Part shown: piece by piece, positions 36,723 to 53,858 of the stretch | Layout: each line of letters opens with the position of its first letter | Numbering within the stretch: position 1 is the stretch's first letter | Source of the DNA: Crocinitomix algicola | Lineage (GTDB): Bacteria; Bacteroidota; Bacteroidia; Flavobacteriales_D; Crocinitomicaceae | Direction of reading: 5' to 3' | Assembly: GCF_001661595.2 (NCBI RefSeq) | Contig: NZ_LYPF02000004.1 | Span: 1-64,000 of the forward strand | DNA length: 64,000 nt | Translations under genes and position numbers: made by a program | Notes under the pieces: generated by a model | What the model was told of the DNA's origin: nothing | What the model saw: only the letters and a program-made list of their open reading frames with translations | Database searches by the model: none

Positions 36723-39700
36723 TTATTGTCCCAACAAATAAGCCATGCAGATGGCCGCTTCATTGTAATTTTTTATTGCAATTATGTAGTCTTTTTTTAC
36801 TTGAATTCCGCGTTCAAGAATTTGGATATAGTTGATAAAATCAATGTTACCACTTTCATAACTCTGTTGTGCATTACTGATCATCAAATCAGCTTGGGGC
36901 AATCCTGTCTCCTCATAATAAGAGAGGTTTTGCATTTCTCTTAGTAGTTGCTGTAACTGAATTTGATATTGATTGTTTATTGAAATGAAATAACCGTCAG
37001 AATTGATTTGAGCATTCTCCATTTCAATTTTGGCCATTTTGATGTTTGATCTGTATGAACCAAAGAACAACGGAATAGTAACACCAAATTCAACTCCTGA
37101 GAATCGATCACCAATTGTACCAATAGAGCCTGATTGCGTTGGCGTACCAATAAGTGATTGATTGAAATACCCTATTGACAGATCAGGCAGTATTCGAGCT
37201 TTGTTGGTTTTGATTTCTGCGTTTGCTATTTCTACGTGTTGATTTGTATAGGCTAAAAAAGGATTGTTGGCCAATAGAGAACTGTCCTGTAAATAAGCCA
37301 TTTCCATCTTAACCAATTCATCAGGCATAAAACTCAAACCGGTTGAATCATTGAGTAAAATACTGATCTCTCTTTGCTGAATTAGAATATCCGCCTTTAG
37401 GATGCTTAGCGAATTTCTGATTTCTAAAAGTTTGGATTCAGCAGTTACTTTTTCCAGAAGATTTGTTGCTTCTACTTCATATCTGAGCTGAGCTGCTTCA
37501 ACAAATCGTGCCATCAATGAATCTTCATAAACCAATAGCTTTTTATATTCATTACGGTAGGTAAGTTGGTTCCATTCTTTTCTAATCAACCACTTTAGTT
37601 TATTTCGTACTACTTCCAACTCTAGCTCTGAACCAACGATTTCTTCCTTCGCTAAATTCCATTGAGCGGTATACACAGTAGGAAATTCAAAATCTTGAGA
37701 TAGGCTAAAACCAAAATCTCTTTCAGCACTATTGTATTGCCCATACTGTCCATTGAAATTGGTTTTTCCAGGATTGAATGCTCCCTTTTTATTCTGTTGA
37801 CTCAATTTGATTTGATTTTCGGCCAACTTTACGTCATTGTTGTTTTGAAAGCCTATTTCAATGGCTTGGTCAACATCAGTGATGACACTATCAGTTTGAC
37901 TGTTTCCATGAAAAGGCATCATGAATAATCCAGTAATGATTAATACCGTAGCCAGACTACTATTAAGTTTAAGATTCTTGCGATTACTCATTTGTTCTGT
38001 CCATTTATAAAGTATAGGTAATACAAATAGTGTAAGGAAAGTTGCTGTGATCATTCCTCCGATTACAACTGTGGCCAATGGTTGTTGAACCTCGGCTCCA
38101 GCAGAGGTAGATATGGCCATAGGTAAAAAGCCAAGGATATCAGTTAAAGCAGTTAAGAGAATTGGTCTGATTCTTCGTTTTGCACCTAATTTGATTCGTT
38201 CATTTAAATCGTTTACTCCTTCATCTTTTAGCTCATTCCACCCACTGATGAGCACTAATCCGTTCAACACAGCTACGCCGAATAATACGATAAAGCCTAC
38301 ACCAGCTGAAATACTGAATGGCATTCCACGCATCCACAAAAAGAACACACCTCCAATTGCAGCTAAAGGAATTGCCATATAGATCATTAATGATTGTTTG
38401 AATGATTTTAGAGCAAAAAGTATTAAAATGAAGATCAGTCCTAAAGCAATGGGAACGACTATTTGTAGCCTTGCACTTGCTCGTTCTAAGTTCTCAAATG
38501 CGCCACCATATCGGATATAATACCCAGGAGGTAGGGTTAATTCCTTATCGAGCTTTTGCTTAATCTCTTCAACCAAAGATTTAACGTCTCTTCCTCTCAC
38601 GTTGATTCCAACATACGACCTTCTGTTAGTATTATCTCTACTGATTTGCATTGGCCCTGATTGATAGCTGATATCTGCTATTTCTTTCATTGGAATTTGA
38701 GATCCATTAGAAGTGGTCACATAAAGGTTATTGATGTCATCTATACTTTGCCTGTGTTCTTCATCTAATCTCACAACAAGATCAAATCTCTTTTCCCCTT
38801 CAAAGATTACTCCTGCTGTTCCTCCGGCAAAAGCGGTTTGTATGAGACTATTCAATTCATTGATTTGTAATCCGTATTGAGCCACTTTAGCTCTATTGTA
38901 ATGAACTGTGATCTGAGGTAGGCCACTCGTGGCTTCTACTTTCATATCTCCAATTCCATCAATACCGGCTATGATCTTACCTATTTCTTCTACTTTTTCT
39001 GAAAGGATATCAAGGTCATCACCGTACAGTTTAATTGCAACATCTTCTCGAACCCCTGTAATTAGCTCATTGAATCGCATTTCAATAGGCTGTGTAAACT
39101 CATAATTCACACCGGGTACTTCTTCCAATCGTTCTTTCATCATGTCAATCAATTCTGACTTTGATCTACCGGTTTCCCATTCGTCTTCAGGATGAAGGAT
39201 CACAAAGACATCAGCAATATCCATGGGCATTGGGTCCGTTGGAACATCAGCCACACCAATTCTGCTGTAAATGTGTTTCACTTCAGGGAATTCATCCATG
39301 ACGATCTGTTCTATCTTGGTGGTTGTTTCGATAGTTTCAGATAATGAAGAACCTGGTTTTAGTATGGCATGGAATGCAATGTCACCCTCATCCAATTGAG
39401 GGATAAATTCACCACCCATTTTACTGAAAGTGAATACTGTAAACGCAAGTAGAGCTATAGCTCCTAATACCACCCATCTGCCAACTTTAAGAACACCAGT
39501 TAAGGCCTTTTCATAGATTCGCTCAAAAAACTCAACTAGTTTGTCTCCCCATGATTTTTTCTTGGTTCCTGCTCTTAAAAACCATGCTGACATCATTGGC
39601 ACATATGTAAGACAGAGGATCATTACACCAATCATGGCAAACATGAATGTTAGTGCCATAGGTTTGAACATCTTACCTTCAACACCTTGTAAAGCCAGAA

Positions 39701-41087
39701 TTGGAATAAACACAATTAGAATGATCAACTGTCCAAAAAAGGCAGAATTCATCATCTTACTAGCAGACTTCTCAGCTATTTCATCACGTTCTTCCGCTTT
39801 TATTTTTTGACCTTTTAAGAGCTTGCCATGCATTAAGAAAACTGTACCCTCAACTATAATTACGGCTCCATCCACAATGATCCCAAAATCAATGGCACCT
39901 AAACTCATAAGGTTTGCCCATACCCCAAAAGCGTGCATGAGTATAAATGCGAATAAGAGGGATAATGGAATGGTTGAAGCTACAATCAATCCACCTCTCC
40001 AGTTACCCAACAGAAATACCAGAACAAAGATCACGATCAATGCTCCTTCAATTAGATTTTGACTTACGGTACCAGTAGTTTTGGCAATTAAATCACTTCT
40101 ATCTAAAAATGGCTCAATATGGACCCCTTCGGGAAGAGATTTTTGGATTTCATCCACTCGCTCTTTTACAGCCTTAATTACATCATTTGAATTGGCTCCT
40201 TTCAGCATTAGTATCATCCCTCCAACAGCTTCCCCTTCACCATCTTTGGTGAATGCGCCGTACTTGATGGCTTTTCCAAAATGAACAGTTGCCACATCCT
40301 TAATCGTGATTGGAATTCCATTGACATTCTTGATGACGATATGCTCAATATCTTCAAGTGTTCTGGCTAATCCTTCTCCTCTAATGAAATTGGCGTAATG
40401 ATCCTTTTCAATATATGCTCCACCAGTATTTTGATTATTAGCTTCTAAGGCACTGAATACTTCAAGCATGGTTACATCCATTCGCCTAAGCTTGTCAGGA
40501 TCAACAGCAACTTCGTATTGCTTAACGTCACCACCAAAAGCATTGACTTCTACGACACCTGGCACCATTGACATTTGTCGTTTGACGATCCAATCCTGAA
40601 CGGTTCTTAGGTCAGCTGGCGAGTAATCATCTTTGTATTCTTCATCAACTTCAAGGGTATATTGATAGATTTCACCCAAGCCTGTTGAGATTGGCCCCAT
40701 CTCAGGTTCACCAAATTCAGAAGGAATGTCATTCTTTACTTCATTTAGCTTTTCAGACACCAATTGCCTTGGTAAATAGGTGCCCATATTATCCTCAAAG
40801 ACAATGGTGACCACAGAGAGGCCAAATCTTGAAATAGACCTGATTTCAACTACACCCGGCAGGTTAGACATAGCAATTTCTACTGGATAAGTCACAAACT
40901 GCTCAATGTCTTCTGTTCCCAAGTTCGGCGCTTGAGTGATGACTTGTACCTGATTATTAGTGATGTCAGGAACGGCATCAAGTGGTACTTTGGTCATACT
41001 CCAAATTCCACCTACTATTAACGCAACCGTCATCAGGCCGATTAATAGCTTATTCTTTATTGAAAAATTTATTATTCGATTGATCAT
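36723..41087 (-). CDS. czcA: Heavy-metal RND pump fused to a TolC-like outer-membrane channel (CzcA-CzcC fusion)
   Basis: A 1454-residue fusion. Residues 1 to about 1030 form a complete HME-RND pump, with the proton-relay motif FGIIVDGAVIIVEG near residue 400, porter domains and C-terminal helices ending VLPILYKWTEQM. A hydrophobic signal-like segment follows (LATVLIITGLFMMPFHGNSQ, about 1045-1065). Residues about 1070-1454 form an outer membrane efflux protein (DVDQAIEIGFQNNNDVKLAE ... YNEAAICMAYLLGQ). The fused arrangement recurs in Bacteroidota; how the channel part reaches the outer membrane, perhaps after cleavage, is unknown. It probably exports Zn, Co or Cd. Confidence 0.93.
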   Translation of the reverse strand: MINRIINFSIKNKLLIGLMTVALIVGGIWSMTKVPLDAVPDITNNQVQVITQAPNLGTEDIEQFVTYPVEIAMSNLPGVVEIRSISRFGLSVVTIVFEDNMGTYLPRQLVSEKLNEVKNDIPSEFGEPEMGPISTGLGEIYQYTLEVDEEYKDDYSPADLRTVQDWIVKRQMSMVPGVVEVNAFGGDVKQYEVAVDPDKLRRMDVTMLEVFSALEANNQNTGGAYIEKDHYANFIRGEGLARTLEDIEHIVIKNVNGIPITIKDVATVHFGKAIKYGAFTKDGEGEAVGGMILMLKGANSNDVIKAVKERVDEIQKSLPEGVHIEPFLDRSDLIAKTTGTVSQNLIEGALIVIFVLVFLLGNWRGGLIVASTIPLSLLFAFILMHAFGVWANLMSLGAIDFGIIVDGAVIIVEGTVFLMHGKLLKGQKIKAEERDEIAEKSASKMMNSAFFGQLIILIVFIPILALQGVEGKMFKPMALTFMFAMIGVMILCLTYVPMMSAWFLRAGTKKKSWGDKLVEFFERIYEKALTGVLKVGRWVVLGAIALLAFTVFTFSKMGGEFIPQLDEGDIAFHAILKPGSSLSETIETTTKIEQIVMDEFPEVKHIYSRIGVADVPTDPMPMDIADVFVILHPEDEWETGRSKSELIDMMKERLEEVPGVNYEFTQPIEMRFNELITGVREDVAIKLYGDDLDILSEKVEEIGKIIAGIDGIGDMKVEATSGLPQITVHYNRAKVAQYGLQINELNSLIQTAFAGGTAGVIFEGEKRFDLVVRLDEEHRQSIDDINNLYVTTSNGSQIPMKEIADISYQSGPMQISRDNTNRRSYVGINVRGRDVKSLVEEIKQKLDKELTLPPGYYIRYGGAFENLERASARLQIVVPIALGLIFILILFALKSFKQSLMIYMAIPLAAIGGVFFLWMRGMPFSISAGVGFIVLFGVAVLNGLVLISGWNELKDEGVNDLNERIKLGAKRRIRPILLTALTDILGFLPMAISTSAGAEVQQPLATVVIGGMITATFLTLFVLPILYKWTEQMSNRKNLKLNSSLATVLIITGLFMMPFHGNSQTDSVITDVDQAIEIGFQNNNDVKLAENQIKLSQQNKKGAFNPGKTNFNGQYGQYNSAERDFGFSLSQDFEFPTVYTAQWNLAKEEIVGSELELEVVRNKLKWLIRKEWNQLTYRNEYKKLLVYEDSLMARFVEAAQLRYEVEATNLLEKVTAESKLLEIRNSLSILKADILIQQREISILLNDSTGLSFMPDELVKMEMAYLQDSSLLANNPFLAYTNQHVEIANAEIKTNKARILPDLSIGYFNQSLIGTPTQSGSIGTIGDRFSGVEFGVTIPLFFGSYRSNIKMAKIEMENAQINSDGYFISINNQYQIQLQQLLREMQNLSYYEETGLPQADLMISNAQQSYESGNIDFINYIQILERGIQVKKDYIIAIKNYNEAAICMAYLLGQ

Positions 41088-41090
41088 AAG

Positions 41091-41208
41091 ATTTTATTCT
41101 TGTTCAACATGATCCTGCTGAAGCGCAGGAAATAACCTTAACATCCAATGTTGATCAGCACTGAACGTTCTAACAAAGTTCACTAAGAACTCTTAGCAAG
41201 AATAAAAT
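41091..41208 (-). promoter_or_regulatory. Inverted repeat sequestering the start region of the Czc pump gene
   Basis: On the transcribed strand ATTTTATTCTTG lies in the last codons of the upstream gene, and CAAGAATAAAAT lies 3 bases before the czcA ATG. The 12-bp arms are perfectly complementary. Between them are smaller helices (CAACAT/ATGTTG and CCTGC/GCAGG). Pairing would mask the ribosome-binding region of czcA and could couple its translation to passage of ribosomes through the upstream gene. The regulatory role is inferred from structure only. Confidence 0.55.
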
Positions 41209-41675
41209 GGAGGTCCCCTTTGAGGTAAAGTAAAAAGATAGGCTTGACTGTCAAATCGAATAGGTGGCCCATTGACACGATTTGAAGTAGTCGATATTTT
41301 TTGACCAATTAGTTCATATTCTAAGAAGATGGTAAAATCTGAAGTTTGGTCATTATCTTGTTGCAGTGAATTTTTAAACTGAACATTTTCTTGACTTACT
41401 GTATGCTCAGCATGACATCCGGAGCCATGATGCTCCAAATCACTAAATAGACAAACTAAGTAGTCCATCCATCCCTCGTCAAAATGATCCCCATGTGAAA
41501 CATGGTCATGCCCATCTAATGCCAAATCATCATGATCATGCTGGTGGTGTTCATGATTGTGTTCATGCTTTTCTTCAATACCATTACAATTGACCTCGCA
41601 GTGAGGGATCAAAGAATGCCCATACCCTAATAAATAGGTAAAAAGCAATGTGACTGATATGACAGATTTCAACAT
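41193..41675 (-). CDS. Small secreted His/Cys-rich protein leading the Czc operon
   Basis: This is a 160-residue protein from the ATG at 41675; the ATG at 41705 is disfavoured because it precedes the signal peptide. A signal segment (MLKSVISVTLLFTYLLGYGH) is followed by a cysteine pair (PHCEVNCNG) and a His/Asp cluster (EKHEHNHEHHQHDHDD, about residues 35-50). The C-terminus ends RGPPFYSC. The composition points to periplasmic or envelope metal binding. It resembles the HYC_CC_PP protein that opens the Cus-like operon in size, export and proline-rich end. It precedes czcA by 105 bp. Confidence 0.8.
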   Translation of the reverse strand: MLKSVISVTLLFTYLLGYGHSLIPHCEVNCNGIEEKHEHNHEHHQHDHDDLALDGHDHVSHGDHFDEGWMDYLVCLFSDLEHHGSGCHAEHTVSQENVQFKNSLQQDNDQTSDFTIFLEYELIGQKISTTSNRVNGPPIRFDSQAYLFTLPQRGPPFYSC

Positions 41676-41686
41676 ATTCACTGATA

Positions 41687-41694
41687 CAAAGGTA
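41687..41694 (-). promoter_or_regulatory. Promoter element TACCTTTG for the Czc operon
   Basis: The minus-strand sequence TACCTTTGTATC fits the Bacteroidota minus-7 element and is 11 bases from the ATG at 41675, giving a very short leader. No good TTG minus-33 box at the standard distance is visible. Confidence 0.5.
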
Positions 41695-41751
41695 GAAATT
41701 ATCAATTAATAGAATTCTGGATTAATCAAAATGTGAATTAAATAAACTATT

Positions 41752-42772: not shown

Positions 42773-43552
42773 TTATTTATTAATAATTATAATTGGCAAA
42801 TGCATTTCGTTTAGGCTTTTCAAATTGACTTTGCACTGCTCCTCGGTAATAATTAAATCGCCTCCCCTTAAATTAGCAAAATCTTCAACACCTTTCAATC
42901 GACAATCCGAATTGAAGATTGATATACTCGTTTTTCGAAAACCATTTTGCGTGATTACCCTTTTCATATTTTCGATACTGATTTTAGAATTCTCACGAGT
43001 TTCATTGGTATCAATAAATACCAAATTGAGATTAAAATCAATAGTATCAATCAAGTTATTAACCAATGAGACACATTGCGGTAGTAATGTATGGAAGTCG
43101 GAAGATAACACAACATCTTCAATGTTTTTGACCTTGAATTCATTACCTACGATTAATTTTACAGGGGTAAATTCGCATAAAAAATCAAGAATATCCGTGT
43201 TGTCCACTTCAAACATTTTTCGATCCGTAATAACAAGGGTATCTACGTTATGTGTATTTTCTGTTGACCGTTCTTCCTGATCATAAAGAAGATATGCTTT
43301 TCGCGCAGCCACTTTTTCTGCTCGAATCTCCATAAGCAAATGATCCATGACTAGACGGGCCTCGTTCATATCTCGTTTGGCTTGTGGGTGACTATCTCTT
43401 ACCGTTCTGCCTAAACTTTCCCAATTTTGGGGAGCTGTAACAAAATGATACAAGGTAATCTCCAACTGGAGTATTTGTGCCATTTGAATGGCTGCTTGAA
43501 TGATGATTTCATTATTTGTCGATTTACTAATCAACACCGCTATTCTTTTCAT
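42773..43552 (-). CDS. Universal stress protein-like protein, divergent
   Basis: A 259-residue two-module protein. It starts MKRIAVLISKSTNNEIIIQAAI, as Usp domains do. A second module begins around residue 135 (VKNIEDVVLSSDFHTLLPQC). The ATP-binding G-x2-G-x9-G(S/T) motif is not clear, so nucleotide binding is doubtful. It overlaps the adaptor gene by 4 bp and is followed by the peroxidase gene after 1 bp. Its role in metal stress is inferred only from the operon. Confidence 0.7.
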   Translation of the reverse strand: MKRIAVLISKSTNNEIIIQAAIQMAQILQLEITLYHFVTAPQNWESLGRTVRDSHPQAKRDMNEARLVMDHLLMEIRAEKVAARKAYLLYDQEERSTENTHNVDTLVITDRKMFEVDNTDILDFLCEFTPVKLIVGNEFKVKNIEDVVLSSDFHTLLPQCVSLVNNLIDTIDFNLNLVFIDTNETRENSKISIENMKRVITQNGFRKTSISIFNSDCRLKGVEDFANLRGGDLIITEEQCKVNLKSLNEMHLPIIIINK

Positions 43553-45288
43553 GATCCTAATTTTTCAATGGTTGATCCACATCCTAGCATTCGATCTCCG
43601 AAGTAAGGATTTTTAATTTTTTCTTCGGTACTAATCCATGTTGCACCTACTCCACCATTTGCCATTGGACAACGCTGTAAAAAGTAGGTATTGTCTCCTA
43701 AATCAAAAGAGCGAATTAGGTTTTCGACTGCTTTAGATACTGGATCAAACGCTTTTCTTTGATTGTCTAATGATTCACTCATCAATTGATCTTTATGAGC
43801 TTTTATGTTATCCACCTGTTCTATGAGAAAGGTTTTTGGTTCACCTTTGATTAAGTCTTTTTGGATATTTTTAAGTGATTCATACATCTTTTGTGCAGCA
43901 CCTTTTACATTCAATGGCTTGCTTTCAATCAATGCATTTTTCATTGTTAAGTAATCATCCACCAAAAAGGTTAACTGCTGTTCCAACACAATGGGAATAT
44001 TCTCACTAAATTCAACTTGCCCATTACCATCAGCCTGATTTTCGTTATTTGATGTGATTTTTCGATTCATCATACTCGATTGATTGTTCAATTGTGCCGC
44101 TGCATCAATTACAAAAGCACCATTTGTAACAACTTCGTCACCTAAATAAAGACCATCAATAACTACATATTCTTCTCCCACAGCTTCACCAATCTCAACT
44201 TCTCTATATTCAAAAGAGGGAATATCTGTGTCTTGAACTTTTACATATACGATTGATCGAGTTCCTGTCCAGAGCACAGCTGTTTTAGGAACAAGTAAAG
44301 GAGAAGATTCAAAAGCTAAGTCGCTTTTAGAGGTATTTACCTCTCCGTCAATAAACATTTCTGGTTTTAACTTTCCGCTAGAATTTTCAACATTTGCTCG
44401 AATTTCTATTGTCCTTGTAGTTGGATCAACAATCGGATTAATGAATGAAACTTGAGTCTCAAATCGTTCATTTGGGTAAGCCTCTGGAACGAAAGCGATT
44501 TTACCTCCTTCTCGAATATTAGATATATCACTTTCATACACATCAAACACAGCCCATAGTGACGATAAGTTTGTTATCTCAAACAGTGCATCCCCTGCTT
44601 TTAAATGATCACCAACAACGACTTTTTTATTGGTTACAACTCCTGTATGGGATGCATAAATCACGAAGTTTTCTTGAATTTGTTTTGAGGTTATAACGTG
44701 ATCAATTTGATCTTCTGTTATTTTCCAATAACGCAGTTTGTTTTTTGCTGCTTCAACGAATGCAGGATTAGAATTCTTTAGTTTTTCAGCTTCTAATAAT
44801 TCTTGCTGAGCTGTGATTAATTCGGGGGAGTAAATCACTGCGATTTTTTGTCCCTTTCTTATTTCTTCTCCTGTATAACTGACAAATAAGCGTTCAATTC
44901 GTCCAGAAAACTGTGTGACCAAATTCGTGGTATACTCCTCATTTGAAACGAGCTTTCCAGAAATTTTCAATGAATTATTCACACTGAATTGATCGGAAAC
45001 TACTGCTGTTTGAATGTTCGATAATTTCACCGCTTCATCCGTCATTTCAAGCACTAAACTACTCTCGTTGGATTGATCTGATTGGGGGATTAAATCCATT
45101 CCACAAATGGGACAATCTCCAGGTTCGTTTTTTCGAATCTGTGGGTGCATAGAACATGTCCAAATTTCTGAGGTATGCTCATGTTCAGAGTGGTCAGTTT
45201 CGAGAGTTTCTTGTGGATGGTAAAAGAAAATCCACCCTAAAAGAATTCCCCCTCCTAATAAAGCTATATTGATCAAATAATGTTTCAT
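43549..45288 (-). CDS. cusB: Copper/silver efflux adaptor (CusB-like) with metal-binding domains
   Basis: This is a 579-residue RND adaptor anchored by an N-terminal helix. A heavy-metal-binding domain at about residues 43-68 reads WTCSMHPQIRKNEPGDCPIC. Standard barrel-sandwich and beta-barrel segments follow (IEIRANVENSSGKLKPEMF). The C-terminal DUF3347 domain (about 435-570) contains FLQRCPMANGG and ends near LGCGSTIEKL. Met/Cys-rich domains like these transfer Cu(I) to CusA. It overlaps genes on both sides by 4 bp. Confidence 0.93.
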   Translation of the reverse strand: MKHYLINIALLGGGILLGWIFFYHPQETLETDHSEHEHTSEIWTCSMHPQIRKNEPGDCPICGMDLIPQSDQSNESSLVLEMTDEAVKLSNIQTAVVSDQFSVNNSLKISGKLVSNEEYTTNLVTQFSGRIERLFVSYTGEEIRKGQKIAVIYSPELITAQQELLEAEKLKNSNPAFVEAAKNKLRYWKITEDQIDHVITSKQIQENFVIYASHTGVVTNKKVVVGDHLKAGDALFEITNLSSLWAVFDVYESDISNIREGGKIAFVPEAYPNERFETQVSFINPIVDPTTRTIEIRANVENSSGKLKPEMFIDGEVNTSKSDLAFESSPLLVPKTAVLWTGTRSIVYVKVQDTDIPSFEYREVEIGEAVGEEYVVIDGLYLGDEVVTNGAFVIDAAAQLNNQSSMMNRKITSNNENQADGNGQVEFSENIPIVLEQQLTFLVDDYLTMKNALIESKPLNVKGAAQKMYESLKNIQKDLIKGEPKTFLIEQVDNIKAHKDQLMSESLDNQRKAFDPVSKAVENLIRSFDLGDNTYFLQRCPMANGGVGATWISTEEKIKNPYFGDRMLGCGSTIEKLGS

Positions 45289-46010
45289 AAACTAAATGTT
45301 AGCATAGTGATCGCCATAACAATCATGATGGCATTCTCTATAAATGTAGCCTCTGTCATAGGTAGTTTTAAAGCCGTTCCAAGACAGGCGCATCTGATTG
45401 TTTTTTTGCTCAACAAGGTTTGAGTGACACCAATGGTTGTAATTCCTAAAACGATAATTGTGGCGATAAGCGCAATCGGAATTTGAAAACGCATCAGAAA
45501 TGCTATCCCAAGTGCTGTTTCTATAAAAGGATAAATCCAAGCATAAATCGGTAATCGTTTTGCTAACGGATCATACATTCTAAAAGAGTCAGGAAACCCT
45601 TTTAGATCAAGTAGCTTAAAAAAACTAAAGACAATGTAAAAAAGTCCCATAAAATCAAGCATTACTTCTCCGATAGTCCAATTTTTGTAATGCATAAGAT
45701 TACTACTCACTGTGATATAGAGTAAAATTAAGAGAAGCGGCTTCAGTTGCTGAATCTTACTTTTTTCTTGGGTTTCGAATTCAGAAGTCGCACGAGCTGT
45801 TTTTTGAACTTCTTCTGAAATTTTATACTTTTCAGATAGTGCGGATTGAAGCTGCTCAAGAGGAATGTGAGTGCTCATTGAAATCGAGGCTTCACCCGAT
45901 TCCAGATTTATCTGGACATCTTCTACTTGGTTTATATTTATTAATGACTGTTCTACAGATGCCTTACATCCGTTACATGTCATTCCTTCTATTTTATATG
46001 TATGTTTCAT
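45285..46010 (-). CDS. HMA metal-chaperone domain fused to MauE/DoxX-like membrane protein
   Basis: A 241-residue fusion. Residues 1-70 form a heavy-metal-associated domain with the copper site GMTCNGCKASVE. After a polar linker, four helices (about residues 92-235) match the MauE/DoxX-type family, including a CACLG pair near residue 207. MauE proteins support disulphide and redox maturation of periplasmic enzymes. Combining copper binding with this membrane part suggests copper delivery or redox handling during efflux. This is inference. Confidence 0.85.
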   Translation of the reverse strand: MKHTYKIEGMTCNGCKASVEQSLININQVEDVQINLESGEASISMSTHIPLEQLQSALSEKYKISEEVQKTARATSEFETQEKSKIQQLKPLLLILLYITVSSNLMHYKNWTIGEVMLDFMGLFYIVFSFFKLLDLKGFPDSFRMYDPLAKRLPIYAWIYPFIETALGIAFLMRFQIPIALIATIIVLGITTIGVTQTLLSKKTIRCACLGTALKLPMTEATFIENAIMIVMAITMLTFSL

Positions 46011-46021
46011 TTGTTGTTTGA

Positions 46022-47269
46022 TTAAAAATTTGTGAGACGCTCGATATTTGCAACTGCAATATGAGCTCTCAACATGGATATTATCTTCTGTTTTTTAAAT
46101 AGCAGTAATTCTTGTTCCAATGAGATTAAATCATCAAAAACAGAATGATCAGCTGTGTAGTTTGCCTTCAAAATTTCAAATGCTTGTTTCGCAATTGCAA
46201 TTTGTTTATTAGACACTTCAAACGAAAGCAGTGTATTTTCGTATGTGCTTTTGAATACTGCTAACTCACTGGTTAATTGATTTACTAGCGCAGTTTTTTC
46301 GTAGGCCAGTACTTCTTGATTTAAAGCTTCAACCTTTCTGGTGTTATGATAAGTATTTCGATAAATTGGAATACGTAGCATTACTTTTGGAATGAAAATA
46401 TCTCTACCATTACCTGCGGGATTAGCATCTGTTCGTTGTCCGACAAGCGCATAGTCTAATCCGATTCCAATTGAAGGAGAATTACTGGTTTTATTCACAA
46501 TCAGTCGATTCTCTGAAGCTTCTGTTTGCGCCTGCAATAGTTTGGCTAACGGATGATGTTTCTCTATTCTTTCCTGAAATAGCGCTAAGTCAAAATACAA
46601 TTCGGGTAAAGTCAACGTATCCTCAGAGCTGATTTCAAAATTCGTGATGGATTGGTTTGTAATTTCATTGATACGCGCAATAGCCATTGCTTCATCATTT
46701 TTGATTTGCATTATATCATTCTTTATGGTTTCCATTTTCATTTGGATTCTCAATACATCAGTCATTGCTCCCTGTCCCGTTTCCATTTTTATAAGACTCA
46801 GTGTCTCTAATGATTTTAGGAGTTTGATTTCTTCCTCCAATAAGTCTTGCGTTTCATAGAGATAGAGCAGTTCATAATAGTTGATCTTCACACGATAAAA
46901 AAGATCAAGCTTTAAAGCTGAAATTTTTTCGTATTCCTGTTTGGACATAGAGATAAGTACATCTTCCTCAGCATCAAGTGCTCCAAACCACGGAAACATT
47001 TGGCTAGCACTAACCATAAGGATTTGTGGCCCTAAACGTGTTTCAGGTTGTAAAATCGGAATTCCAACACCTATTGTTGGTTGATCCAATTGTCGCGCAT
47101 TTTTTGTTTGAATTACAGCTGCCTCGTACCTTTTTTCCAAGGCTCTTAGTTTAGGATTTTGAGCTGTTGCTAATGCAAGTAACGAATCCAATGATTGGGC
47201 AAAGCAATCTTGTTTTTGGACACCAATCAACAAGACGACTAAAACGATTATATTTTGCTTAATATTCAT
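46022..47269 (-). CDS. TolC-family outer membrane efflux protein (CusC-like)
   Basis: A 415-residue channel protein with a signal peptide (ending DCFAQ). It has two repeats of the OEP fold with long coiled helices (LALATAQNPKLRALEKRYEA; LQAQTEASENRLIVNKT) and strands with PSIGIGLDYALVG. It is separate from its pump, unlike the fused Czc set. It lies between cusA (2 bp) and the HMA-MauE gene (11 bp). Confidence 0.93.
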   Translation of the reverse strand: MNIKQNIIVLVVLLIGVQKQDCFAQSLDSLLALATAQNPKLRALEKRYEAAVIQTKNARQLDQPTIGVGIPILQPETRLGPQILMVSASQMFPWFGALDAEEDVLISMSKQEYEKISALKLDLFYRVKINYYELLYLYETQDLLEEEIKLLKSLETLSLIKMETGQGAMTDVLRIQMKMETIKNDIMQIKNDEAMAIARINEITNQSITNFEISSEDTLTLPELYFDLALFQERIEKHHPLAKLLQAQTEASENRLIVNKTSNSPSIGIGLDYALVGQRTDANPAGNGRDIFIPKVMLRIPIYRNTYHNTRKVEALNQEVLAYEKTALVNQLTSELAVFKSTYENTLLSFEVSNKQIAIAKQAFEILKANYTADHSVFDDLISLEQELLLFKKQKIISMLRAHIAVANIERLTNF

Positions 47270-47271
47270 GT

Positions 47272-50200
47272 TTAACTGGTTTTAAGTAAGTTGTTCGATT
47301 TCAATTTGAGATCAATCTGCTTCCAAATACAATACAGTACGGGCACTGTAAACATGGTAATGAGGTTGAATACCATGCCTCCAAAGGAAGGAATGGCCAT
47401 AGGAAGCATAATGTCAGCTCCCTTTCCTGTAGAAGTAAGTACAGGAAGTAATGCTAAAATTGTTGTTGCCGTCGTCATCATGGCGGGCTTTACTCGTCTC
47501 AATCCTCCCTGCACTACAGCATCTTCAATAGCTTTGACGTTATTCGGTTGGTTTTTCTTGAAGCTGTCTTTGAGAAAAGTTGCCACAAGTACACCGTCAT
47601 CAGTGGCAATACCAAATAAGGCGAGAAATCCTACCCAAACGGCTACACTTAAATGTATTGTATGAATTTGAAATAAGTCCCGCATATTTGTTCCGAAAAG
47701 ACTAAAATTCATGAACCATTCTTGACCGTATAGCCAAATCATAATGAAACCTCCTGCAAATGCCACAAATACACCAGAAAACACAAAAAGGGAAGTAAGT
47801 ACAGACTTAAATTGGAAATAGAGGATTAAAAATATGATCAGTAATGCAATCGGTAAAACAACACTGAGTCGCTTGTTTGAACGAACCTGTTGTTCGTAAT
47901 TTCCTGCAAATTCATAAGTAATTCCGCTTGGAACAATTAACGTTCCATCATTTATTTTATCCTGTAGGTATGCTTCTGCATTTTGAACCACTTCAACCTC
48001 CGAAAAATCTGCTACTCTATCAAAAAGTACATAACCCAATAAAAAGTTGTTCTCACTCTTTATTGCTTGTGCGCCTTGTTCATATTCTACATCTACTAAC
48101 TCTTCTAATGGAATTTGCGTGCCATCTGGAGAAGCGATATAAATGGACTTGATTCGTTCTGGATCATTTCTAAGTTCCATAGGATAACGGACACGAATTC
48201 CGAAACGTTCTCTTCCTTCCACCGTAGTACCAACATGCTTTCCACCTATTGCAGTTTGCAGTTGACGTTGAACGTCGACAATTGTTAGCCCATAGCGACT
48301 GATTTTTTCGCGTTTTATGGCCAACATCAAATAAGGTTTTCCTACGATTCGTTCTGCAAAGACAGCTTCTGTCTTTACGCCTTTTACTTCTTTTAAATGT
48401 GTTTCTAATTGAAATCCAAAAGCTTCTATATCCTCCAAGTTTGTTCCCCTCACTTTTATCCCCATTGGCGCACGCATTCCTGTTTGTAGCATGACAAGTC
48501 TTGTCTCAATCGGTTGTAGTTTTGGTGCAGAAGTAACACCAGGAATTTTTGCTGCGTTTATGATTTCATTCCAGATATCATCAGGAGATTTGATATGTTC
48601 ACGCCATTGTCTGAAATACTGTCCGTTATCATCAGGGATAAGATTGCCTGAATTATCATAAACAAAAGCACCTTCATAATCTGTTTTAAACCGAATTTTT
48701 TGTCCATTTTCATCTTGGATATATTCAGATTTATATGAAATTATGTGTTCATACATGGACATTGGAGCAGGGTCTAATGCACTTTCAACCCGCCCTGCTT
48801 TTCCAACTACCATTTCCACTTCTGGAATTGTGTTAATTGACAAATCGAGTAGACGAATGTTACTTTCATTCATTTCCATACCAGCGTGTGGCATAGCTGT
48901 AGGCATCAATAAAAACGATCCTTCATTTAGCGAAGGCATAAACTCTTTTTCGGTCGATTTGAAAATCGTAAATCCTGTGTAAAGCAGTAAAACAATCACC
49001 CCTAGAAAAACGTACTTGATACGCAATAAAAACCGCAATATCTTTTCGTAAAAATGGATCACACCATAAAAAGAACCAATTAAAAGAATAATGATTAAGA
49101 GTACGAAAATGAAATTTATAAATATGCTTTGTGCAACACCAAGCGGCATCCAAATAGATGCGAGTAACCAGGTTACGAGTAGTGCATAAACCCCATTTTT
49201 GATGTAGCCGAATTTCTTAAGCCAAGGTTCTTGTTTATTTTCTTGAAAATAAGCGTTTAAACCACCACCAAGGGCTACAACAATACCAAGCATACCAAGA
49301 AATGAAAATTGGCCGAATAGTAATATACTTCCAAAAATGAATAGCAGCCCGTTGACCAAATACTTAAAAATTCGTGGTTTGCTTTTTATTTTAAATAACT
49401 GTTCCGCTATTGGCGGAATTACAGTAATAGCGAGAAGTACAGCAGCTAAGAGCGCAAAAGACTTCGTATAAGCAAGCGGTATAAACAATTTACCCTCTGC
49501 CGCTTGCATAGTAAATACAGGTAAAAAACTAACAATCGTTGTTGCGATAGCCGTAATTACGGCAGAAACAACATCAGTGGTTGCTTTATAAATGGTTGTA
49601 CTGATGGTTTGTGTTGGTGGTGCAACAGCTAATTGAGCAGTCATGCTTTCGGTTAAAACAATTCCCATATCCACCATTGTTCCAACAGCAATGGCGATAC
49701 CTGATAATGCCACAATGTTCGCATCAATACCGAAATACTTCATGGCAATAAAACACATCAATACAGCAACGGGCAATGATCCTGCAATGAGTAAAGAAGA
49801 TTTGAAATGAAGTAACAGCAATAACACAACAATGATGGTGATTAAAACTTCAAGTGTCAGGGCTTCTTCTAATGTTCCGATCGTTTCATGAATTAATTGT
49901 GAGCGATCATAAAAAGGAATAATCTTTACATGAGAAATGCGACCATCCGCTAATTCTTTTTGAGGTAATCCTACAGCAATTTCCTCCATTTTTTGTTTGA
50001 TATTCTGAATCACCTCCATAGGGTTAGCCCCGTATCGTGCAACGACAACTCCTCCTACTGCTGGAGCTCCAGATTTATCCAGAATTCCTCGACGTGGAGC
50101 TGGTCCCAGATGAACATGAGCAATGTCTTGAATACGAATGGGTGTATTATTAACCACCTTTACAACACTTTTTTCAATGTCTTCAACCTTTTTAACATAC

Positions 50201-50958
50201 CCCAAACCTCTAACAAAATATTCAGCTAGATTGATTTCAACAGTTTGCGCACCAACATCCAAATTAGAGGCTTCAGCGGCTCTTACAACTTCATTTATAG
50301 TAATGCCATAGTTTTTCATTTTTTCAGGCCGTACATCAATCTGGTACTCTTGTACAAAACCGCCAATAGAAGCTACTTCTGATACACCTTCTGCTGATTG
50401 TAATCCATAACGAACATAGAAATCTTGTATCGTTCTTAATTCATGTAAATCCCACCCTCCAGTTGTTTTTCCATGTTCATCTTGCCCCTCAAGGGTATAC
50501 CAAAAAACTTGACCTAGGGCTGTAGCATCAGGGCCTAGTGATGGGGTAACTCCTTCAGGAAGAAGATCAGATGGAAGTGAATTAAGTTTTTCAATGATTC
50601 GACTTCTGCTCCAATAGAAATCTATATCATCATCAAAAATTAGATAAATACTTGAAAAACCGAACATGGAATTACTCCGAACACTTTTAACTCCTGAAAT
50701 TCCTAAAAGTGCCGAGGTTAAAGGGTAAGTAATTTGATCTTCTACATCTTGTGGAGAACGTCCTGCCCATTCGGTATAGATTATTTGCTGATTCTCTCCA
50801 ATGTCTGGAATAGCATCAACAGGAACAGGATCACTTGGTAAATAAGACAAATTGAAATTGAAGGGAGAAACAACAATTCCCCAACACACAAATAAAATGA
50901 CCATTATCCATGCGACTAGCTTATTGTCAAGAAAAAATTTTACGATACGATTTAACAT
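47272..50958 (-). CDS. cusA: Copper/silver RND efflux pump (CusA-like)
   Basis: A 1228-residue HME-RND transporter with the relay motif ALSGIAIAVGTMVDMGIVLTE (about residues 420-440). The C-terminal half contains LFGIATDDGVLVATFLKDSF. Compared with E. coli CusA (about 1047 residues) it has an extra membrane-rich insertion at about 530-660. Met-rich porter positions (ALDPAPMSMYEH, SAPKLQPIETRLVMLQTGMR) fit monovalent copper or silver transport. The start codon is directly preceded by a long inverted repeat. Confidence 0.94.
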   Translation of the reverse strand: MLNRIVKFFLDNKLVAWIMVILFVCWGIVVSPFNFNLSYLPSDPVPVDAIPDIGENQQIIYTEWAGRSPQDVEDQITYPLTSALLGISGVKSVRSNSMFGFSSIYLIFDDDIDFYWSRSRIIEKLNSLPSDLLPEGVTPSLGPDATALGQVFWYTLEGQDEHGKTTGGWDLHELRTIQDFYVRYGLQSAEGVSEVASIGGFVQEYQIDVRPEKMKNYGITINEVVRAAEASNLDVGAQTVEINLAEYFVRGLGYVKKVEDIEKSVVKVVNNTPIRIQDIAHVHLGPAPRRGILDKSGAPAVGGVVVARYGANPMEVIQNIKQKMEEIAVGLPQKELADGRISHVKIIPFYDRSQLIHETIGTLEEALTLEVLITIIVVLLLLLHFKSSLLIAGSLPVAVLMCFIAMKYFGIDANIVALSGIAIAVGTMVDMGIVLTESMTAQLAVAPPTQTISTTIYKATTDVVSAVITAIATTIVSFLPVFTMQAAEGKLFIPLAYTKSFALLAAVLLAITVIPPIAEQLFKIKSKPRIFKYLVNGLLFIFGSILLFGQFSFLGMLGIVVALGGGLNAYFQENKQEPWLKKFGYIKNGVYALLVTWLLASIWMPLGVAQSIFINFIFVLLIIILLIGSFYGVIHFYEKILRFLLRIKYVFLGVIVLLLYTGFTIFKSTEKEFMPSLNEGSFLLMPTAMPHAGMEMNESNIRLLDLSINTIPEVEMVVGKAGRVESALDPAPMSMYEHIISYKSEYIQDENGQKIRFKTDYEGAFVYDNSGNLIPDDNGQYFRQWREHIKSPDDIWNEIINAAKIPGVTSAPKLQPIETRLVMLQTGMRAPMGIKVRGTNLEDIEAFGFQLETHLKEVKGVKTEAVFAERIVGKPYLMLAIKREKISRYGLTIVDVQRQLQTAIGGKHVGTTVEGRERFGIRVRYPMELRNDPERIKSIYIASPDGTQIPLEELVDVEYEQGAQAIKSENNFLLGYVLFDRVADFSEVEVVQNAEAYLQDKINDGTLIVPSGITYEFAGNYEQQVRSNKRLSVVLPIALLIIFLILYFQFKSVLTSLFVFSGVFVAFAGGFIMIWLYGQEWFMNFSLFGTNMRDLFQIHTIHLSVAVWVGFLALFGIATDDGVLVATFLKDSFKKNQPNNVKAIEDAVVQGGLRRVKPAMMTTATTILALLPVLTSTGKGADIMLPMAIPSFGGMVFNLITMFTVPVLYCIWKQIDLKLKSNNLLKTS

Positions 50959-51037
50959 TTTTCATTTTTAGAATGGAATAAAACACAGAATGCTCTAGTC
51001 TAAAAAGACCTAGAGCTTACTATTCTAAAAATGAAAA
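50959..51037 (-). promoter_or_regulatory. Nested inverted repeat filling the gap before cusA
   Basis: The whole 79-bp gap between the HYC_CC_PP stop and the cusA ATG folds on itself. The outer arms TTTTCATTTTTAGAAT and ATTCTAAAAATGAAAA (16 bp, perfect) begin and end exactly at the two genes. Inside, GCTCTAGGTCT pairs with AGACTAGAGC (one bulge). The right arm abuts the cusA ATG and would hide its ribosome-binding region. There is no T tract after the stem, so it is not a simple terminator. Confidence 0.75.
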
Positions 51038-51508
51038 TCAAATACGGAATACCTGTTGCAAAACGGTTATGTCTTGCCTCAGTAAGGGTGGTTTGTATGC
51101 CCTATAATTGGAAACAAATTTTGTTGGGTTAAACAATTGAAAATCAATCGCAGCATAAATAAGAATGGCTTGAATTTCATTCAAGTCAGTGTAATTCACA
51201 GTGGCTTGTTTTGTTGCGTCTTCCGAATCAAAATTTAATTGTTCGTCATGACAACAATTGTTTTGACAAAACCCATTTCCTTCCTTACTTTCTTGCTCGG
51301 CAAGATATTTTTTTTGGTGACAAGGCGGTAATTTTTCGAATTCTTCAGCGCTCAAGACATCCTTCTCCATATCGCATTTTTCCGCTTCAAATAAACCAAT
51401 GCTTTTTATCTCATCTCCACAGAAATGGACTTCTAGGGAAAAACCTATTGTTGAAACCAGTAACAATGGAATCAATAAAAAGGGTGCTATGGAACGCAAA
51501 ATTTTCAT
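51038..51508 (-). CDS. HYC_CC_PP-family small secreted protein
   Basis: A 156-residue protein with a signal peptide (MKILRSIAPFLLIPLLLVSTIG). The family hallmarks are visible: VHFCGDEI near residue 28, a CC pair in CQNNCCHDE near 80-88, and a C-terminal YKPPLLRQD. Such proteins are common beside copper and heavy-metal efflux genes in Bacteroidota. Their function is unknown but the Cys and His content suggests metal binding. It is the first gene of the Cus-like operon and diverges from the MbnP-like gene. Confidence 0.85.
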   Translation of the reverse strand: MKILRSIAPFLLIPLLLVSTIGFSLEVHFCGDEIKSIGLFEAEKCDMEKDVLSAEEFEKLPPCHQKKYLAEQESKEGNGFCQNNCCHDEQLNFDSEDATKQATVNYTDLNEIQAILIYAAIDFQLFNPTKFVSNYRAYKPPLLRQDITVLQQVFRI

Positions 51509-51801: not shown

Positions 51802-52758
51802 ATGAAAAAACTGATACTTAGTGCATTTAGCAGTTTATTACTTTTAACAGGAATTGCTCAAACCGACGTTACACTTAAGATTAATCACAAACTTGGAGTG
51901 GACGATTTTGCATTGGATGTTGTAAGTGCCAACAATTTAGGACATGAATTCAAAGCTTCTCGATTAGAATATTATGTAACACGAATAACTATTCTACATG
52001 ATGGAGGAACAGAAACGAATGTTCCAGATGCAATAGTTGCGCTTGTACGTCCAGAGGACGAAATTTCTACTTCAATCGAATTAGGAAATTTTGATGTAAC
52101 TGATATCGAAGGGGTTAAGTTTCATATAGGTGTTTATGCTCCGTTAAATAACGAAGACCCATCTATTTGGGATGTCTCTCATCCGCTTGGACCAAAATCA
52201 CCTTCTATGCACTGGGGATGGGCATCAGGATACCGATTTATTGCGTATGAAGGTTTTGGAGGAGATGACCTTTCACAGAATTTTCAATTGCATGGTTTAG
52301 GAAACGAAAACTATTTTGAAGTAGAATCAGATGTTGAAGTTACCGACGAAGCAGGTTCATTAGTGATGAGTTTAAACGGTAACTATGCGGCAGGACTAAA
52401 TGATATTTCGTTAACAGGAGGTACTATTTCTCATGGATCAACAGGAGAAGCAAAAAAAGTATTGGAAAATTGGAGAGATGTTGTTTTTGGTCTATATACG
52501 GTTGGTTTGGAAGAAGAAAATGCATTGTCTTGGTCTTTATTCCCCAATCCTTCAAATGGTCAGATACAATTGAATTTTGCTGATGTAGAAAAGGTAAAAA
52601 CAATTAACATTCTAAATCCCCTTGGAGAATTGGTACAAACGACTTCGGTTACCAATACACAAATGAATATTGAGCTGTTAAATGCTGGTGTTTATATAGT
52701 CGCTGTGTTAAATCAAGAGGGAGAAACAGTAGCTACCGAAAGAGTAATTATAAAGTAA
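51802..52758 (+). CDS. MbnP-like copper protein with T9SS sorting domain
   Basis: A 318-residue protein with a signal peptide (ending LTGIAQ). An MbnP-type domain spans about residues 20-235, with FKASRLEYYVTRITIL, VKFHIGVYAPLNN and the signature MHWGWASGYRFIAYEG. A C-terminal type A sorting domain covers about 245-318 (LFPNPSNGQIQLN ... GVYIVAVLNQEGE). In methanotrophs MbnP gains a copper site when MbnH oxidises a Trp to kynurenine. The Trp residues of the MHWGW motif are candidates here. The partner gene follows 5 bp later. Confidence 0.87.
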   Translation: MKKLILSAFSSLLLLTGIAQTDVTLKINHKLGVDDFALDVVSANNLGHEFKASRLEYYVTRITILHDGGTETNVPDAIVALVRPEDEISTSIELGNFDVTDIEGVKFHIGVYAPLNNEDPSIWDVSHPLGPKSPSMHWGWASGYRFIAYEGFGGDDLSQNFQLHGLGNENYFEVESDVEVTDEAGSLVMSLNGNYAAGLNDISLTGGTISHGSTGEAKKVLENWRDVVFGLYTVGLEEENALSWSLFPNPSNGQIQLNFADVEKVKTINILNPLGELVQTTSVTNTQMNIELLNAGVYIVAVLNQEGETVATERVIIK

Positions 52759-52763
52759 GAGGG

Positions 52764-53858
52764 ATGAAAATGAAGCGTGGAATAATTGCCTTAAGTGCTA
52801 TAATAATTTTGGCATCTTGTAAAAAAGATCCGCCTGTAGAACCTTACGTGGCAGAATATGATGACACTCCTTATAGTTTGAAGTATCAGAATAATACATT
52901 GCCTGCTCCAAACTTACCATCTGACAACCCTTTGACAGTGCAAAAGGTAGAGTTAGGGCGTATGTTATTCTATGAAAAAACACTTTCCAAAGATGGCTCA
53001 ATGGCTTGTGCTACGTGTCATATACAAGAAGATGGCTTTTCTGATCCCGATCAATTCTCCATTGGTGTAGAAGGATTACCAGGCGCTCGTCAGGCAATGG
53101 CTGTTATTAATCTGGCTTGGAATGAAAACGGATTCTTTTGGGATGGACGTGCAGAACTGTTAAGACATCAATCTGTATTGCCAATTCAAGACCCGCTTGA
53201 AATGAATGAGACATTGGAAAATGTAATTACAAAATTAAGTCTACAACAAAACTATAAAGATCAGTTTACACGTGCATTTGGTAATGAAACCATAAACGAG
53301 CAAAGGATTTCACATGCACTTGAGGCGTTTATGTTTTCAATGGTTTCGGATGACTCAAAGTATGATCGCTATCTTGAAGGAACAGCTACCTTGACTGATG
53401 CAGAAGAACGTGGACGACAGTTGTTTTTTGCAGAGTATAATGAATTTTTCCCAGAGACATCTGGAGCTGATTGCGCACATTGTCACTCTGGTACTAATTT
53501 TGAAAACGATCAATACATGAATAATGGTTTGGATTCGGATATGGATTTCACTGATCTGGGGCGTTATGATGTAACTGAAAATGATGCCGATAAAGCTAAG
53601 TTTAAGGTAACAACCTTAAGAAATATTGCTTTAACTGCACCATACATGCATGACGGACGTTTCAATACATTAGAAGAAGTAATCAATCATTACAATAGCG
53701 AATTACATTCGTCTTCTACACTTGACCCGGCCTTGGCAAGTACAATGGGAACAGGGTTGATGTTAGACGAAGGAGACATTGCTGATTTGATCGCATTTTT
53801 GCATACGCTTACAGATGATCGATTCTTAACGAATCCGGAGTACAAATCGCCTTTTTAA
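52764..53858 (+). CDS. MbnH-like di-heme peroxidase family lipoprotein
   Basis: A 364-residue protein with a lipobox (IIILASCKKD). The haem sites are ACATCHIQ (about residues 87-94) and DCAHCHSG (about 237-244). Conserved family blocks include WDGRAELLRHQS and TLRNIALTAPYMHDGR. Pairing with an MbnP-like gene points to the MbnH branch of the MauG superfamily, which uses a bis-Fe(IV) state to oxidise Trp in its partner. A terminator follows, so the two genes form one transcript. Confidence 0.9.
   Translation: MKMKRGIIALSAIIILASCKKDPPVEPYVAEYDDTPYSLKYQNNTLPAPNLPSDNPLTVQKVELGRMLFYEKTLSKDGSMACATCHIQEDGFSDPDQFSIGVEGLPGARQAMAVINLAWNENGFFWDGRAELLRHQSVLPIQDPLEMNETLENVITKLSLQQNYKDQFTRAFGNETINEQRISHALEAFMFSMVSDDSKYDRYLEGTATLTDAEERGRQLFFAEYNEFFPETSGADCAHCHSGTNFENDQYMNNGLDSDMDFTDLGRYDVTENDADKAKFKVTTLRNIALTAPYMHDGRFNTLEEVINHYNSELHSSSTLDPALASTMGTGLMLDEGDIADLIAFLHTLTDDRFLTNPEYKSPF

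Follow-up and report, generated by a model that had tools for sequence, protein, structure and literature searches.

A conserved hairpin between an HYC_CC_PP leader gene and cusA in Crocinitomix algicola, predicted to open with a ribosome at the leader stop codon, points to a likely copper-sensing switch

The gap between a gene of the HYC_CC_PP family and the efflux pump gene cusA in Crocinitomix algicola encodes an RNA hairpin that is present in single copy, flush with the upstream stop codon, conserved in structure at related loci, and predicted to be opened by a ribosome at that stop codon but not by one on the upstream PP. In silico, masking of the cusA start and its opening by a ribosome on the upstream gene are well supported. 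We think it probable that HYC_CC_PP is an exported leader resembling CutF and CruR, a metal-sensing nascent chain whose pause at its own stop codon opens the stem that masks cusA. The arrangement is likely to be a copper-sensing switch; switches of this type are so far known mainly from other groups of bacteria. The window referred to below is the whole 64,000-nt stretch of DNA that was analysed; its relevant features are the following:

51038..51508, minus strand: HYC_CC_PP leader gene, 156 aa, with a hydrophobic N-terminus and conserved H/C residues (NCBIfam NF047658; alignment with 17 relatives)
51251..51256, minus strand: codons for CC (residues 85-86), a motif that lies 70 residues ahead of the stop and is invariant in 18 of 18 aligned sequences
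51041..51097, minus strand: codons of the C-terminal tail, Y138 to I156 (Y.PP....DI.VL.Q.FRI), the proposed arrest segment (column information and synonymous codon variation)
51038..51040, minus strand: hyc stop codon TGA, within the extended stem (fold) and the proposed A-site codon of an arrested ribosome (stem-onset statistics)
51022..51037, minus strand: 5' arm of the outer stem, abutting the hyc stop (inverted-repeat match)
50987..51021, minus strand: inner hairpin, with arms 51010-51021 and 50987-50998 (sequence and fold)
50959..50974, minus strand: 3' arm of the outer stem, A-rich, abutting the cusA ATG and likely the initiation region
47272..50958, minus strand: cusA, a CusA/CzcA-family RND efflux pump of 1228 aa with its ATG at 50956-50958 (TIGR00914, 763.5 bits, cut-off 701)
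46022..47269, minus strand: outer-membrane efflux protein (OEP) of the same cluster (PF02321)
45285..46010, minus strand: HMA-MauE fusion protein of the same cluster (PF00403 and PF07291)
43549..45288, minus strand: CusB-like membrane fusion protein with HMBD and DUF3347 domains (PF16576, PF19335, PF11827)

The leader product scores 65.4 bits against NCBIfam NF047658 (cut-off 28) and belongs to that family, and the start position of cusA is kept among relatives. Read along the minus strand, the hyc stop (51038-51040) is followed by a 79-nt gap (50959-51037) and then by the cusA ATG (50956-50958). The gap opens with TTTTCATTTTTAGAAT right after the TGA stop and closes with its exact reverse complement right before the ATG, a perfect 16-nt inverted repeat flush with both genes, inside which lies a second pair of arms (12 nt, 83% complementary). 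The earlier note had described this as a 79-bp nested hairpin with perfect 16-bp outer arms from stop to ATG and an inner stem within, and its coordinates (50959-51037) proved exact. The outer arms lie at 50959-50974 and 51022-51037; the note understated the extent of the stem, since pairing in the predicted fold runs past 16 bp, through the hyc stop and the first cusA codons. The minus-strand RNA folds at -30.7 kcal/mol (z -4.6); dinucleotide shuffles average -16.9 (sd 3.0), and none of 200 comes as low. The window has 11 same-strand ORF pairs separated by 45-200 nt, and at -17.7 the stop/start duplex of hyc-cusA is much stronger than that of any other (-8.9 for the next). A search of the 3.7-Mb genome gives a single match to the hairpin, and exact copies of the arm sequence are confined to the hyc-cusA locus; thus the hairpin is not a repeated element.

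HYC_CC_PP is present in 91 of the 296 Bacteroidota genomes sampled. The cusA search covered 59 genomes, the own genome included, and a purpose-built HYC profile run on the fetched loci yielded 162 HYC ORFs, 148 of them distinct. In a first group of 17 loci (L002-L018), most pair a post-stop arm with an arm before the ATG of cusA, and the arm sequences differ from locus to locus. Pairing was assessed with an arm-swap test, in which the 5' segment around the stop was hybridised in silico with the segment at the downstream start, taken either from its own or from other loci. The test took 122 of the 148 distinct ORFs (gap of 50-200 nt, downstream start assignable), among which near relatives are not independent observations and the downstream starts, for which either cusA homology or the first ATG served as the guide, are in some cases wrong. 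At the 54 HYC-cusA loci, own arms pair at -13.64 kcal/mol compared with -6.79 (sd 0.36) when permuted, a value reached in 0 of 5000 permutations, and at 37 of the 54 the own pairing falls within the best 5% of its swaps. The signal remains when coding bases are removed (-9.76 vs -4.24; 0/5000). HYC leaders with other downstream genes (n = 68) give a weaker signal than the cusA set, -9.34 vs -5.98 (sd 0.27; 0/5000). Under permutation within GC-matched blocks, the HYC-cusA loci still stand at -13.64 vs -8.64 and the other leaders at -9.34 vs -6.92, both with 0/5000.

The controls for this test required some care. Earlier control sets of other gene pairs also gave a signal (n = 80, 0/5000; n = 68, 0/5000) because they held duplicate HYC loci, PP/RGPP leaders and GC-rich antisense ORFs; once those pairs were removed and permutation was GC-matched, the control signal was gone and the HYC signal persisted. 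In the GC-matched swap test, 54 ORF pairs without a leader showed no signal (-7.75 vs -7.60; 1520/5000). Two controls with shifted arms likewise showed none (4889/5000 and 999/5000). The earlier note had tied its proposal to covariation of the arms among relatives, and the arms do co-vary across loci, both in the swap tests (0/5000) and in a flavobacterial clade alignment, A4, where 10 of 25 pairs carry two-sided changes with pairing kept and 0 of 500 shuffles reach as high a count. Only 1 of the 13 pairs of the outer-stem helices in A4 is changed on both sides, most such changes falling in two inner hairpins, so covariation of the outer stem is carried mainly by the swap test. Between the arms, the pre-cusA gaps of one flavobacterial clade (L055-L084) hold two more inner hairpins that carry two-sided changes. 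Column-based consensus folding of the nearest relatives (alignment A2) missed the outer stem, since the register of the arms shifts from one species to the next, which is why the arm-swap test was used. The mid-gap region in relatives is more stable than its shuffles (mean z -2.4; z < -2 in 30 of 54), and a few HYC-cusA loci (L076, L080, L128 and L177) are essentially without a stop/start duplex. The hairpin is conserved as a structure, not as a sequence, in HYC-cusA loci.

An arrested ribosome covers approximately 11 nt beyond a stop codon in its A site, and this footprint was used to model opening of the stem. For the window, the predicted unpaired probability of the cusA start is 0.19 in free RNA, in keeping with the masking that the earlier note had claimed, 0.17 with a ribosome on PP, and 0.52 with the stop codon in the A site. 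Over the start region (-16 to +4) of the 54 HYC-cusA loci the mean values are 0.32, 0.31 and 0.50, respectively, and with the ribosome at the stop 24 of the 54 loci gain more than 0.2 in unpaired probability, while none shows a fall. The ORF-pair control stays nearly level (0.46 free, 0.47 on PP, 0.49 at the stop), with a rise in 3 of 54. The gate would therefore be predicted to respond to a pause at the stop but not to one on PP. As to what might open the stem, the earlier note had offered three candidates, namely upstream translation, a ligand and an RNA-binding protein; the first agrees with the change from 0.19 to 0.52 for a ribosome at the hyc stop, whereas a ligand-binding RNA or an RNA-binding protein fits poorly because the arm sequence is not conserved.

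A helix of at least 8 bp is found at 41 of the 54 HYC-cusA loci, the other 13 lacking an uninterrupted 8-bp helix, and in 34 of those 41 the strongest helix begins between -3 and +5 nt from the end of the stop codon, compared with 30% when arms are swapped; helices of at least 10 bp occur at 23 of 54 loci compared with 9%. With other downstream genes, helix onset lies in the same interval in 31 of 56 cases (27% swapped). A second leader family serves as a check on this onset. The window contains a His-rich leader at 41193-41705 (minus strand) that ends in RGPPFYSC and precedes a czcA-type pump gene (36723-41087, minus strand); the 105-nt gap between them holds a start-masking stem of 12 perfect bp, in which the last leader codons pair with the region before the czcA-type start. 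The 1454-aa ORF of this pump matches the RND family over residues 1-1037 and TolC over residues 1119-1411, and pump and outer-membrane channel seem, from these matches, to be fused in it. Of 28 distinct RGPP leaders, 10 have no helix reaching 8 bp; in 16 of the other 18 the helix onset lies between -3 and +5 nt from the end of the RGPP codons, i.e. before the stop codon (41% swapped). The swap test on 17 RGPP loci, a number that includes one whose leader was wrongly picked (L192), gave -10.71 vs -8.16 (sd 0.66; 1/5000). RGPP is reported as an experimentally shown arrest motif (PMC12992588), which makes the stall site of this family predictable, and its 5' arm starts where the A-site codon of the stalled ribosome ends. 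Applied to HYC leaders, in which the stem begins right after the stop, this rule suggests that the stop codon should occupy the A site when they stall.

The earlier note did not recognise that the upstream protein itself looks like the sensor, with a tail conserved to the stop and a fixed distance between CC and the stop. At 44 of the 54 HYC-cusA loci this distance is 69-71 residues, and over 147 leaders it averages 71.1 with an sd of 2.6, compared with an sd of 10.0 for the distance from HYC to CC (128 leaders). A fixed length across weakly conserved sequence is what a ruler from sensor to ribosome would need. In the last 30 columns of 55 right-aligned cusA-linked leaders, the best conserved are PP at -17/-16, the last three residues, and Q/E at -5: P at -16 carries 3.3 bits, the final F/Y, L/R and I carry 3.2-3.3, and Q/E at -5 carries 3.1. 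The last residue is I in 44 of the 55, and 9 of the 55 have no PP in their last 27 residues. The tail codons vary synonymously, so selection acts on the peptide. The conserved tail could instead serve the mature HYC protein, for which the AlphaFold2 model (mean pLDDT 57.9) is too poor to judge the role of the tail.

We suspect that these elements operate together as follows. In free RNA, the sequence after the hyc stop would pair before and partly through the cusA start codon, and cusA would be poorly initiated. HYC_CC_PP, whose hydrophobic N-terminus is seen in the alignment, would be synthesised as a leader for export whose CC motif binds metal; once the ribosome stood at the hyc stop, approximately 70 residues would separate CC from the peptidyl-transferase centre, so that it would sit just beyond the translocon. 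Metal on CC would prolong a pause in which the stop codon occupies the A site, the tail Y.PP....DI.VL.Q.F[RL]I holding the ribosome, and the paused ribosome, covering the first ~11 nt past the stop, would pull the 5' arm from the stem and free the cusA start. We infer export, arrest and metal binding, with copper as the ligand that switches cusA on; for cusA, copper-on would be the sensible direction.

The strongest alternative is plain translational coupling, in which cusA is off unless hyc is translated, any terminating ribosome opens the stem, and HYC_CC_PP is an ordinary periplasmic copper-binding protein that neither pauses nor senses. The stem and its covariation require nothing more than this, and since a merely terminating ribosome would also open the stem briefly, the stem alone is no proof of a pause. 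However, coupling leaves unexplained why the tail is conserved as peptide right up to the stop, why the CC-to-stop distance is constant over poorly conserved sequence, and why the stem begins at a different place in RGPP leaders, and we therefore regard it as rather unlikely to be the whole account. A transcriptional switch, in which arrest or release at the end of hyc chooses between Rho- or hairpin-dependent termination and read-through, appears quite improbable: CruR does act through Rho (PMC9426467; also the discussion of PMC9973294) and the inner hairpin is stable, but a terminator scan of the gap found no terminator-like site, and a terminator does not need the conserved pairing of stop-proximal with start-proximal arms. 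We disfavour as very improbable a ligand- or protein-binding RNA element of the riboswitch or RNA-thermometer kind, in favour of which stands the structured 5' region ahead of a metal gene; the hairpin has no Rfam match at gathering score (the best, a plant microRNA family with E 0.33, is far below it), and its arms vary in sequence and slide in register between relatives. Chance, a small repeated element or a transposon end, brought to mind by the perfect 16-bp inverted repeats that the ends of mobile elements also carry, is hardly credible, being refuted by the swap test for a structure that is single copy, flush with both genes and kept with other sequences.

A metal-sensing nascent chain that pauses at its stop codon would have several precedents. 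Nascent-chain arrest near a stop codon, coupled to downstream mRNA structure as we propose for HYC, is known from SecM-secA and TnaC. These differ from HYC in peptide, signal and target. Both are named in the discussion of the CutF paper (PMC9973294). CutF of Rhodobacter capsulatus is described there as a nascent exported copper sensor, slowed translation of which opens a stem over the cutO start. HYC_CC_PP resembles it in being small, presumably exported and metal-binding, with a conserved, proline-containing C-terminus, and directly upstream of a copper gene, and in both systems an intergenic stem masks the downstream start region (PMC9973294). They differ in motif, HYC/CC as opposed to CxxxC (PMC9973294), and in the placement of the stem, which in HYC starts at the stop codon and would imply a pause there, not on PP. 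The same paper reports many CutF-like proteins in Bacteroidota, with CusA-type (ACR_tran) proteins among the downstream genes, and an overlap of its list with HYC is thus possible (PMC9973294).

Formal membership in these classes was also considered. Four HYC proteins match neither DUF2946 nor any other Pfam family up to E 10. The published CutF-like filter calls for PP within the last 15 residues and a length below 150 aa (PMC9973294); the HYC protein of the window, at 156 aa with PP at -17/-16, falls outside it, and our re-implementation (PP and length) passes 1 of 55 cusA-linked and 22 of 93 other leaders. An intergenic stem over the downstream start, another CutF-like criterion, is present in HYC-cusA. 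CruR of Bordetella pertussis is described as carrying CXXC and RAPP, acting via Rho and reducing how strongly a TonB-dependent transporter is expressed, and it has a length constancy like that of the HYC CC-to-stop segment (PMC9426467); HYC tails lack RAPP and the HYC target here is an exporter. The upstream ORFs uDF_NAP-stop and uA_NSP-stop are likewise from Bacteroidota and have conserved residues that end at the stop, which toeprints place in the A site; their last residue is proline, and they serve as export monitors ahead of secDF or secA (PMC10987492). HYC tails, in contrast, end mostly in F/Y-L/R-I and precede metal genes, and a C-terminal proline is absent among the residues listed for the 55 cusA-linked leaders. 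RAPP/RGPP peptides are, like HYC, small secreted leaders that regulate downstream genes (PMC12992588), a class that the 41193-41705 leader (RGPPFYSC) would fit, while neither motif was found in HYC tails, whether in the alignment or in the profile-found ORFs. Copper-related RAPP/RGPP leaders are reported absent from Bacteroidota in that source (PMC12992588), and HYC_CC_PP may fill their role in this phylum. With no DUF2946, a PP position and length that mostly fall outside the filter, no RAPP/RGPP and no terminal proline, HYC would work like CutF and is not filed as a member of its class. A literature search by family name and by copper, nascent-chain, arrest and Bacteroidota terms gave no HYC_CC_PP paper among the matches listed.

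More tentatively, we propose a phylum-wide class of termination-arrest metal sensors in Bacteroidota. In these, the HYC_CC_PP nascent chain would read periplasmic copper through a CC approximately 70 residues from the peptidyl-transferase centre, arrest through its F/Y-[LR]-I tail while the stop codon occupies the A site, and thereby open the covarying stem, which begins exactly at the end of that codon and hides the start of a copper efflux pump or a TonB receptor; the sister RGPP/His-rich leaders would control czcA-type pumps in the same way, except that their stem begins just past RGPP. If this is true, the rule that the 5' arm starts right after the stalled A-site codon would allow stall sites to be read from genome sequence, and HYC_CC_PP, a widespread family annotated by motifs only, would gain a function as a co-translational metal sensor gating efflux and uptake genes. 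It would also extend the CutF/CruR principle to Bacteroidota with another protein family, another arrest signature and a stall at the stop codon.

Genes downstream of HYC leaders not linked to cusA are mostly metal genes; for 93 such leaders, Pfam matches of the downstream proteins include TonB plug (28), HMA (22), ACR_tran (10), HMBD (6) and OEP (5). The own genome holds two further HYC genes besides the copy in the window: one (L032) precedes a cusA paralogue and has its own stem, and the other (L039; 1418-4156 on contig C24) precedes a TonB-type receptor across a gap of 57 nt with a weak stem (-5.8). At two loci (L010 and L072) HYC and cusA are separated by a thioredoxin-like gene, ahead of which the outer stem is weak or absent. 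In family f17 (L040-L054 and similar), many HYC leaders have another tail (...YHQYIFY[SA]) with the stem kept, and precede genes with secreted-type N-termini, many of them probably TonB-plug proteins. HMA proteins resembling the 45285-46010 product directly follow HYC leaders in other genomes (L060, L067). Divergent from hyc-cusA, at 51802-53858 on the plus strand of the window, lie genes for an MbnP-domain protein with a T9SS sorting tail and then a MauG-type di-haem cytochrome c peroxidase, which suggests a copper-linked neighbourhood.
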